Under the pieces are notes generated by a model that did no database searches, was not told the origin of the DNA, and was given only the letters and a program-made list of their open reading frames with translations. The position numbers and the translations under genes were made by a program. From Ruminococcus sp. (GTDB lineage: Bacteria > Bacillota > Clostridia > Oscillospirales > Ruminococcaceae), in contig NZ_JAFUAG010000004.1 in NCBI RefSeq assembly GCF_017464355.1, positions 62,001 through 126,000 on the forward strand: a DNA stretch of 64,000 bases, given 5' to 3'. Below are positions 48,068 to 49,531 of this stretch, in pieces; within the stretch, counting starts at the first letter, position 1, and each line of letters begins with the position of its first letter.

Positions 48068-48097
48068 CTAAAAAGCGGCAGAAAACATATCTGCCGC
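48068..48097 (-). terminator. Intrinsic terminator of the 33-codon peptide gene
   Basis: 8-bp stem GCGGCAGA with TCTGCCGC, followed on the minus strand by TTTTTAG. It separates this locus from the two-component system. Confidence 0.88.
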
Positions 48098-48206
48098 TAA
48101 CAATTATTTATTGATGTATTCGAGACTTGATACTTTCCATGGCTGCAAGTGCTTCGGTAGGTATCCCTATTTTCTTATTGTCGCTCTCATGCTGTATCAC
48201 CACATT

Positions 48207-48308
48207 TCACGCGATTGTTCTTACAACGTATACGACCGCTGAGATAAGCACTGCAACTTCCACTATACCCAAGACAGCCAAGCCTGTAACTCTTAAAATC
48301 TTTTTCAT
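48207..48308 (-). CDS. 33-aa hydrophobic peptide, type I toxin-like; frame continues after an in-frame TGA
   Basis: A peptide starting MKKILRVTGLAVLGIVEVA with a single membrane helix that runs nearly to its end (LISAVVYVVRTIA). AAAGGG lies about 11 nt before the ATG. After the TGA at 48207-48209 the same frame stays open for 32 codons to a TAA at 48108, with a hydrophilic sequence (KKIGIPTEALAAMESIKSRI). Two readings fit: a complete small hydrophobic peptide of the Fst/TxpA class size, or a 66-aa membrane protein broken by one nonsense change. A terminator follows the second stop. Confidence 0.5.
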   Translation of the reverse strand: MKKILRVTGLAVLGIVEVAVLISAVVYVVRTIA

Positions 48309-48313
48309 GATAC

Positions 48314-48342
48314 TTAACACCCTTTCGTATTTATGCTATACA
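48314..48342 (+). promoter_or_regulatory. Sigma-A-like promoter of the plus-strand small RNA
   Basis: TTAACA and TATACA separated by 17 bp. It lies antisense to the leader just upstream of the 33-codon peptide gene. Confidence 0.5.
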
Positions 48343-48348
48343 TAGCGG

Positions 48349-48445
48349 ATCGCTAATATCAGAATGCCGATCGTACCGGCTGTCTGTATAGTCTGTAGAC
48401 CAGTTTATCGACTTTGACCAGAAGTCGATAAACTGGTCTTTTTTT
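48349..48445 (+). ncRNA. Candidate antisense small RNA, about 97 nt
   Basis: A predicted transcript from the promoter at 48314-48342 to a very strong terminator at 48398-48445. No ribosome site or credible reading frame is present. It is fully complementary to the predicted 5' leader of the minus-strand peptide gene, whose promoter is at 48505-48532. The arrangement resembles RNA antitoxins of type I systems. Confidence 0.5.
48398..48445 (+). terminator. 17-bp perfect terminator stem with no upstream plus-strand gene
   Basis: GACCAGTTTATCGACTT (48398-48414) pairs perfectly with 48422-48438 around a 7-nt loop, followed by seven T. The nearest plus-strand gene upstream ends at 42794, so it must end a separate small transcript. 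Confidence 0.85.
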
Positions 48446-48504
48446 GAGCAAGTCCTGCAATCCGAGTACCACGATCAACAACAACGAAGGCTTTGTTTTA
48501 TCAT

Positions 48505-48532
48505 AGTATAGCATATCCTTTCGGAAAATCAA
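48505..48532 (-). promoter_or_regulatory. Promoter of the minus-strand 33-codon peptide gene
   Basis: TTGATT and TATACT separated by 16 bp on the minus strand. It implies a leader of about 190 nt before the ATG at 48308. The remaining gap 48533-48658 is AT-rich and shows nothing I can assign. Confidence 0.5.
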
Positions 48533-48658: not shown

Positions 48659-48687
48659 TTGACACAGGTATAATTATTTGATATACT
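48659..48687 (+). promoter_or_regulatory. Sigma-A promoter of the lipoprotein gene at 48731
   Basis: A perfect TTGACA and TATACT separated by 17 bp, 43 bp before the ATG. Confidence 0.82.
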
Positions 48688-48730: not shown

Positions 48731-49531
48731 ATGAATAAAAAGATTTTAGCGGTCATGGCCGCATTTTTAATGTGCGCAGGACTTTCCGCCTGCAGCGAAG
48801 CACCTGCCGAGAACGAGAGCAGTGAGGCCGAGAAGACCATAGCCGCAGCAGACCCTGTTGTTCCCGATGAAGAAACTACCCCCGATGAAGAGACCACCCC
48901 TGATGAAACTACAACCGAGGAAGAAACAACATCTGCTGAGGTAAATATAATAGAGAAAAGCTCAGATGACGGTCTGCTGACCACCACCTCAAATCTCGTG
49001 CCCCTTGATGATGAGTACGGCTTCTATCTGGAGCTGGATCTTTCAAAGGAAAAGCTCGATGAAGATACAACAGTTTCTCTGTATGACGCTAAAGGGCAGA
49101 AGGTCGCTGAGATGATGGACGACGGCGATATGGACGAAAGCGGCGACAGAACTGCAGATGATGGTATTTACAGCTGTTTCTTCAAGCCTGAGTCAGATGA
49201 ATGTGAGACCTATGAAGTGACCGCTGAGTACGGCGACAAGACCTCGAACATGGTAAGGCTGCGCACTTACACCGATGACATACCCGAGGAACTTTCAGAA
49301 GATTTTAACGGTGTTATGGAAGAATTCAGCAAGATATCGGAAAAGTACTCAAATACTCTTGGTGAATACAGCAGCGAAAATGCAGTCAAGGCTACCAAGG
49401 AAGCCACTGCGCTGGCAGAGAAGCTTTACGCTGACGGCAGGATAGTTTCCTACCGTTCAGGTGACGGCAATGTTGTCATCAAGCACCTCTGCGGCACCAC
49501 TTATATATTCTCGACCGAGACCATGAAATAG
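48731..49531 (+). CDS. Lipoprotein with choice-of-anchor type linker, unknown function
   Basis: A 266-aa lipoprotein with a signal ending in LSAC (Cys21). A low-complexity linker (residues 25-70) contains the repeat PDEETTPDEETTPDETTTEE. The C-terminal domain has a beta-sandwich look: FYLELDLSKEKLDEDTTVSL, then the segment ESGDRTADDGIYSCFFKP, which resembles bacterial Ig-like or choice-of-anchor X domains with a Ca-binding DxDxDG-like turn. The end is helical (VMEEFSKISEKYSNTLGEY). GAGGAG precedes the ATG. Monocistronic, ended by the terminator at 49542. Confidence 0.82.
   Translation: MNKKILAVMAAFLMCAGLSACSEAPAENESSEAEKTIAAADPVVPDEETTPDEETTPDETTTEEETTSAEVNIIEKSSDDGLLTTTSNLVPLDDEYGFYLELDLSKEKLDEDTTVSLYDAKGQKVAEMMDDGDMDESGDRTADDGIYSCFFKPESDECETYEVTAEYGDKTSNMVRLRTYTDDIPEELSEDFNGVMEEFSKISEKYSNTLGEYSSENAVKATKEATALAEKLYADGRIVSYRSGDGNVVIKHLCGTTYIFSTETMK

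Follow-up and report, generated by a model that had tools for sequence, protein, structure and literature searches.

Organization of the locus

The window is the whole 64,000-nt stretch of a Ruminococcus sp. contig that was analysed, and the locus described here lies within positions 48068–48532. It comprises the following features.

48505–48532, minus strand: promoter-like site TTGATT-16-TGcTATACT, derived from the prophage P2 promoter in inverted orientation, reading into the remnant
48462–48498, minus strand: 5' half of the P2 small RNA, by local alignment, its start assumed from the -10
At GGTACTCGG, minus strand: junction of the P2 RNA half with ORF1 from codon 4 onwards
48348–48460, minus strand: remnant of ORF1 (a 47-aa coiled-coil and membrane protein), frameshifted and without its native start region and its end
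48397–48439, plus strand: terminator-like stem of the predicted antisense RNA, identical with the palindromic coding stretch of ORF1
48314–48342, plus strand: degraded antisense promoter P3, TTAACA-17-TATACA, by comparison with 10 non-window copies
48207–48308, minus strand: ORF2, a 33-aa single-helix membrane peptide with intact frame, from the ORF list
48154–48206, minus strand: start of the regulator (RHH) gene, remainder deleted, by BLASTN against G018
48125–48152, minus strand: probably the 3' half of the P2 small RNA in antisense
48074–48098, minus strand: terminator-like hairpin, probably host sequence, from the terminator scan

The original prediction described a type I toxin-antitoxin-like pair, in which a minus-strand promoter, a leader of about 190 nt, a 33-aa peptide gene and a terminator (48068–48097) formed one unit opposed by a plus-strand antisense RNA. 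The peptide gene is present: the ORF2 frame starts with ATG at 48308 and runs for 33 codons to 48207 (the ORF list gives 37 aa from an upstream GTG), with a mean hydropathy of 2.61 over 19 residues. A terminator-like hairpin was found at 48098–48074, and the plus-strand terminator stem, placed at 48398–48445, corresponds to a hairpin of 19 counted pairs at 48397–48439 followed by TTTTTT. The supposed leader, however, is actually the frameshifted protein gene ORF1, as seen in the prophage alignment and by tblastn. At the plus-strand promoter TTAACA-17-TATACA can indeed be read, but it is absent from the promoter scan hits (the scan demands a T at the last -10 position) and is degraded compared with all ten related copies.

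Between 46500 and 50500 the consensus scan marked 14 promoter-like sites, where shuffled sequence gave 7.5 (sd 2.5), and 5 sites resembling terminators, where it gave 2.8 (sd 1.5). Because such scans find many sites by chance, single sites prove little. Rfam gave no match over the window. The main alignments of the window to its relatives on contig C48 and in genome G018 end before the hairpin at 48074–48098, which has short matches elsewhere in G002 and in G371; at the start of the RHH gene the BLASTN match to C48 ends a few bases earlier than that to G018. A lipoprotein-like gene (48731–49531) with a PDEETT repeat stretch adjoins the locus and is preceded by a near-consensus promoter, TTGACA-17-TATACT, at 48659–48687.

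Distribution of related copies

The 501-bp unit is found twice in the own genome, the second time on contig C48 (75%), and once in G018, a genome of the genus (78%). In the suggested check for synteny and for the peptide frame within the genus, 5 of 29 genomes had any DNA match, which spanned the cassette in two (the window's own and G018) and was short in the other three. Among 396 genomes of the family sample eight matched, all but the own one by short pieces; one of these, G166, is a distant member. An ORF1 profile detected 4/29 genomes in the genus (own, G018, G012 and G014), 3/396 in the family (own, G138 and G166), 1/394 in the order (own) and 6/291 in the class (own and five weak matches). 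The ORF1 of G138 reached E 4.1e-18 once its own sequence had been added to the profile, and those of G012 (E 3.1e-4) and G014 (E 0.0092, with an internal stop) are weaker matches but convincing by layout. The five weak class matches were judged to be noise; two of them, L035 and L038, were inspected.

Searching genome contigs with the ORF1 alignment returned four loci, L024 (evidently G018), L025, L026 (evidently G166) and L027. With the exact prophage P2 promoter sequence as query two IMG/VR contigs were obtained, L021 and L022, and two degenerate DNA patterns returned only the same two from viral contigs. No match to ORF1 was found at E<=0.1 in phage and plasmid records, and a P3-pattern search of 128 family genomes matched only the already known G138. 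The comparisons below use ten non-window copies (C48, G018, L021, L022, L014, L025, L027, L030, L041 and L042), among which ORF1 identity falls to 36%.

Anatomy and context of the fuller copies

The copies in C48, G018, L021 and L022 lie in prophages, behind holin-like and endolysin genes, in the order P1, ORF1, GC hairpin, ORF2, RHH gene and convergent P2 RNA gene. A Bro-N-type antirepressor gene follows in three of the four (C48, L021 and L022), a different gene in G018. By Pfam the C48 antirepressor matches Bro-N (E 4.3e-21), the endolysins of C48 and G018 are of CHAP and GH25 type, respectively, and G018 has a holin; the antirepressors, endolysins and holin-like genes of L021 and L022 were assigned by eye. 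ORF1 has 47 aa, with a coiled coil and a membrane helix, and ORF2 has 33–35 aa. Each bears one hydrophobic stretch, with mean hydropathies of 2.02–2.70 over 19 residues in 13 sequences. The ORF2 of the window is 93.8–96.7% identical over 30–32 aa to the copies in C48 and G018 (tblastn). P1 is at consensus in 9/10 non-window copies, L041 having CTGACA.

The prophage endolysins L012:7244-7774, L013:5929-6666, L022:5521-6306 and L021:1687-2247 carry a dockerin-like tail (GDLNGDGKVNVADV...-type, by eye). In Pfam, run on the C48 and G018 endolysins only, Dockerin_1 scored E 3.7e-4 on that of C48 (21.1 bits, cut-off 22.9) and was unreported for that of G018.

Within the genus, copies other than that of the window are found in prophages or next to an endolysin-like gene. 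In L014/L023 the cassette has a divergent XRE gene, and genes for a resolvase and for a MobV-type relaxase (Mob_Pre) are nearby (Pfam); L025 has the same surroundings and L027 a divergent XRE-like gene, both by eye. L030 lies in a terminase-bearing prophage (Pfam), and in L041 and L042 the cassette has an endolysin-like gene (by eye) on one side and a tRNA gene on the other (Rfam match for L041; asparagine anticodon by eye). A type II hammerhead ribozyme was found at L027:4783-4851, downstream of the cassette and within the mobile-element region (E 6.2e-8; 51.6 bits against a gathering threshold of 37).

The operon can also be without the two membrane ORFs. In L008 (G013) a 46-aa ORF of another kind comes after P1 and before the RHH gene, P2 and the antirepressor, and because this operon has neither ORF1 nor ORF2, ORF1-P3-ORF2 is regarded as a cassette within, or lost from, the antirepressor operon. 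The L008 operon (L008:856-1530) shares its RHH type and its P1 operator words with L022.

The position directly behind holin-like and endolysin genes in the Ruminococcus prophages, the operator-like words at P1 and the resemblance of ORF1 to a coiled coil plus membrane helix would fit another function, in which ORF1 and ORF2 of the fuller copies are phage lysis or superinfection-exclusion proteins with timing set by the antisense RNA. However, the cassette also occurs beside a MobV-type relaxase and a resolvase, where no lysis gene was seen by eye within 16.0 and 6.4 kb, and the G018 prophage already has a holin. We consider a lysis or exclusion role a serious possibility that nevertheless falls short of being probable; it concerns the family and is compatible with the window copy being a relic.

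Family assignment

The ORF1 variants matched PHROG 7712, a family recorded as of unknown function, with E-values of 4e-7 (L041), 4.1e-6 (L027), 1.4e-5 (L030), 7.9e-4 (L014) and 0.016 (G018 type), and the PHROG matches of ORF1 and ORF2 were almost only families of unknown function. Used against 299 phylum genomes, the PHROG 7712 profile gave five weak matches and none in the own genome or in 14 controls; since the own genome was missed, the profile is insensitive for this ORF1 subtype. Neither Pfam, run on two ORF2 sequences and one ORF1 sequence, nor NCBIfam, run on nine sequences, gave a hit to an Fst or Ldr family at E<=1; only weak hits to other families appeared. PADLOC gave no match. The earlier statement that no named family is recognised for the pair therefore holds for Pfam, NCBIfam and PADLOC. 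XhlA, of which ORF1 had been reminiscent, was rejected for want of a Pfam match. In the literature searched, with subscription papers mostly outside its scope, nothing was found on PHROG 7712, on type I toxin-antitoxin systems together with prophage and antisense RNA in Ruminococc-, or on a Ruminococcus prophage antirepressor with antisense.

A conserved promoter facing back into ORF1

In 10/10 non-window copies P3 (TTGACA/T-17-TATACT/TATAAT) is found just before ORF2, facing back and nearer to consensus than in the window. The predicted P3 RNA opens with a GC hairpin in all ten. The automatic end-finder placed its end at a T-run inside ORF1 in seven copies (134–153 nt) and halted early in L014, L025 and L027 (114–124 nt), where the terminator stem was located by hand. 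On the antisense strand of the relatives a T-run follows the ORF1 hairpin, so that the coding palindrome may double as antisense terminator. Peptide and antisense gene thus recur together in mobile elements, as the original pairing would have it, but the predicted RNA opposes the upstream 47-aa ORF1 and not the ORF2 peptide, its terminator lying inside the coding part of ORF1.

When the ORF1 hairpin and its following Ts were compared with 60 synonymous recodings, 0–3 recodings reached the native value in 9/9 sequences: none for C48, L022, L014, L027, L041 and L042, one for G018 and L025, and three for L030. In this test, which used codon weights from the ORFs themselves, L021 was left out and L042 cut at its internal stop; the nine sequences represent about five independent lineages. 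In the outer stem of six hand-picked sequences 96.4% of the cells were paired, against 20–51% in slid controls. The proposed check for covarying stems gave modest results: 2/10 pairs changed on both sides among the six sequences and the covariation score was reached by only 13 of 500 shuffles, whereas the pair count was reached by 111 and the number of pair types by 270.

It could be argued that promoter, stem and T-run on the plus strand came about by chance and that an antisense RNA gene never existed, given the many hits that consensus scans yield by chance and the modest covariation of the stem. Such a coincidence appears very improbable, as P3 occupies the same place in 10/10 non-window copies at ORF1 identities down to 36% and the hairpin exceeds the synonymous expectation in 9/9 sequences tested, from about five independent lineages. 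The antisense layout is beyond chance because of this recurrence of P3.

Rfam, run on eight relative loci, found nothing on the P2 or P3 RNAs; its other matches were a tRNA, the L027 hammerhead ribozyme and a sub-threshold miRNA hit, L006:1393-1464, which overlaps the P1 region.

Thirteen further IMG/VR contigs (L057-L069) carry a P3-like pattern in a similar layout, mostly between two small ORFs, and nine of them have a consensus promoter upstream on the sense strand. The two ORFs look membrane-bound in L061 and L068 and soluble in several others. An antisense terminator test on eight of the 13 loci (five were dropped as repeats or too short) was mixed: of 200 shuffles the stem was reached by one at two loci, by 10–17 at three and by 38 at one, and two loci had no stem; a different method likewise gave a mixed picture. 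These loci may belong to a wider class of antisense RNA genes and are given as a lead only.

Decay of the window copy

Decay was measured against the consensus of the four prophage copies (C48, G018, L021 and L022). Over the 203 columns of ORF1 and the intergenic part there are 9 substitutions and 5 indel events. The first 90 nt of ORF2 have 5 substitutions and no indels; 15 substitutions and 1 indel fall in the 56 columns that remain. The start region of ORF1 is gone and its frame broken, the pieces of the frame being found by tblastn. A deletion of ~46 nt took away the 5' GC hairpin of P3, and P3 itself lost one consensus base per hexamer (TTAACA, TATACA), including the last T of the -10. 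Most of the RHH regulator gene is gone.

The two stem arms are perfectly complementary in the window and imperfect in the four prophage copies, and L014 backs the prophage state at the changed arm. A single templated event explains the perfect stem more simply than three separate changes, so the stem is probably a mutational signature, best read as quasipalindrome repair by template switching, a mechanism treated in PMC8794818 and PMC7202029. A perfected stem, probably the product of template switching, can in this way make a dead copy more persuasive than the fuller ones.

These changes bear on whether the window copy could be a working, domesticated type I pair, with the P2-derived promoter driving ORF2 and a weakened antisense RNA tempering it. 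ORF2 is intact, preceded by a ribosome-binding-like sequence (by eye) and bracketed by promoter and terminator, and the antisense stem grew more, not less, perfect. A fully dead relic would not have to keep ORF2 intact: it has no indels, with ~2.2 expected (P ~0.11 by a Poisson estimate). Yet P3 lost a consensus base in each hexamer together with its 5' hairpin, and the antisense RNA would miss ORF2. The substitution density of ORF2 (5 per 90 nt) is about the same as, and not clearly below, that of the dead ORF1 beside it (9 in the ungapped part of the 203 columns). A working pair is therefore unlikely. We regard the window copy as the broken and inverted remains of a prophage control region, probably dead.

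Origin of the driving promoter

The minus-strand promoter at 48505–48532 is present as first described but is not the unit's own: by BLAST it matches prophage P2 on the opposite strand and has been displaced and inverted. The matching stretch covers the promoter and about the first 37 transcribed bases, in opposite orientation relative to the cassette. Local alignment with the P2 RNA of G018 scored 34, reached by 0/2000 mononucleotide shuffles, and with that of C48 22, reached by 3/2000. In the own genome the P2 core motif (<=2 mismatches) occurs only in the window and at P2 of C48, the control giving 0. The other half of the P2 RNA would lie at the far end of the locus, where a 28-base stretch matches G018 weakly (82%, E 0.002).

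The simplest account is that the cassette was inverted and that one of the breakpoints fell within the P2 RNA gene. Among the five copies with both cassette and P2 the inversion is seen only in the window. The long genus matches cover the response-regulator gene and end close to where it starts, which left no readable empty site. That P2 is merely a common host promoter was rejected, as the own genome has two sites only and the homology extends into the P2 RNA. A TTTCCGAAAGGATATGCTATA-like promoter motif was seen by eye before other genes in L015, L018 and L019, near position 1500, in other genera of the family; it is perhaps a shared regulatory promoter.

P2 RNA, RHH regulator and operator words

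The predicted P2 RNA has 71–80 nt and two hairpins in 5/5 copies (C48, G018, L021, L022 and L008). Hairpin 1 is almost unchanged and the second stem comes in three different forms, each with a T-rich tail. The RNA is predicted to stop short of the ribosome-binding site of the antirepressor. A small RHH gene precedes the antirepressor, assigned by Pfam in C48 and by eye in the others, in C48, L021, L022 and L008; three RHH types matched PHROG 876 (E 8.6e-15, 1e-8 and 8.1e-7), and the two types run in Pfam were below its cut-offs.

P1 bears repeated operator-like words. With one RHH type TGTATCCAC is present in two copies each in L022 and L008, and L021, of the same type, has one TGTATCCAC and CGTATCCAC; C48 has TGCGTACGCA twice and G018 TGGTCGACCA twice. 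The word type tracks the RHH type, which suggests the RHH protein as a putative repressor of P1.

A model for the cassette and its relic

Taken together, the window locus is likely a fragment, orphaned and in decay, of a prophage antirepressor operon whose fuller copies would be antisense-controlled. In these a repressible-looking P1 would head ORF1, ORF2, the Arc/RHH-type regulator and then, in three of four, the Bro-N-type antirepressor. P3 would make an RNA of ~135–155 nt that starts with the GC hairpin and ends at the terminator built into ORF1; by pairing with the ORF1 part of the mRNA it would hold ORF1 expression down in the lysogen. The convergent P2 would make the two-hairpin RNA of ~71–80 nt behind the regulator gene, and de-repression of P1 would release ORF1, ORF2 and the antirepressor. 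The sequences themselves show the anatomy, the homology, the decay and the inversion junction; transcription of these units, repression by P3, repressor action of the RHH protein and any toxicity of the peptides are predictions. In the window P2 is inverted upstream, ORF1 frameshifted, the P3 hairpin deleted and P3 damaged, which leaves ORF2 as at most an unopposed or weakly opposed leftover.

More broadly, we lean towards the view that prophages and mobilisable elements of gut Firmicutes share an undescribed ORF1 (PHROG 7712)-ORF2 cassette, whose antisense gene starts between the ORFs and ends in ORF1 codons, and that in Ruminococcus prophages it is nested in a P22 immI-like antirepressor operon, which two antisense RNAs and an RHH repressor would keep in check. 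Probably a fossil, the window copy is of little consequence in itself, but the relic leads to an undescribed family with fuller copies elsewhere in gut bacteria, in which two tiny membrane proteins face an opposing antisense RNA. If real, the family would lend PHROG 7712 a testable function and would be a further membrane-peptide cassette under antisense control, present in Ruminococcus and related mobile elements.

Comparison with known systems

Fst has 33 aa, and Fst/Ldr systems have convergent RNAs that share a bidirectional terminator. The comparison with Fst made at the outset extends to the similar length of the hydrophobic peptide only: no Fst/Ldr profile matched, the cassette layout is not convergent with a shared terminator, and the hairpin at 48397–48439 was scanned as a terminator on the plus strand only.

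The type I systems of Firmicutes prophages are closer. TxpA/RatA and BsrG/SR4 of B. subtilis have an overlapping antisense RNA in a convergent layout. PMC6563280, which reviews type I systems in clostridial prophages, covers small hydrophobic proteins of 28–60 aa, many of them prophage-encoded, with an overlapping antisense RNA in convergent orientation, e.g., C. difficile CD0977.1-RCd11. The cassette is alike in its small hydrophobic proteins (ORF1 and ORF2), its prophage setting and its predicted cis antisense RNA gene, P3, overlapping the putative toxin gene ORF1. It differs in that two membrane ORFs flank the antisense promoter and the terminator lies within the ORF1 coding part, and it has neither a lysine-rich C-terminus nor a named-family match. 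The type I layout of the original prediction is thus seen in the fuller copies, but in the window ORF1 is broken and P3 degraded.

In P22, sar is a short antisense RNA. The cassette's surroundings resemble P22 immI in that a small RHH-type gene is followed by a predicted short antisense RNA gene and then by an antirepressor gene; the likeness is one of layout. Unlike in P22, the predicted P2 RNA misses the ribosome-binding site of the antirepressor, the antirepressor is of Bro-N type, and two extra membrane ORFs with their own antisense RNA stand in front. The immI region, as described in PMC2629481, holds mnt, arc, sar and ant. The fuller cassette thus appears to be laid out like type I control placed in a P22 immI-like antirepressor operon.
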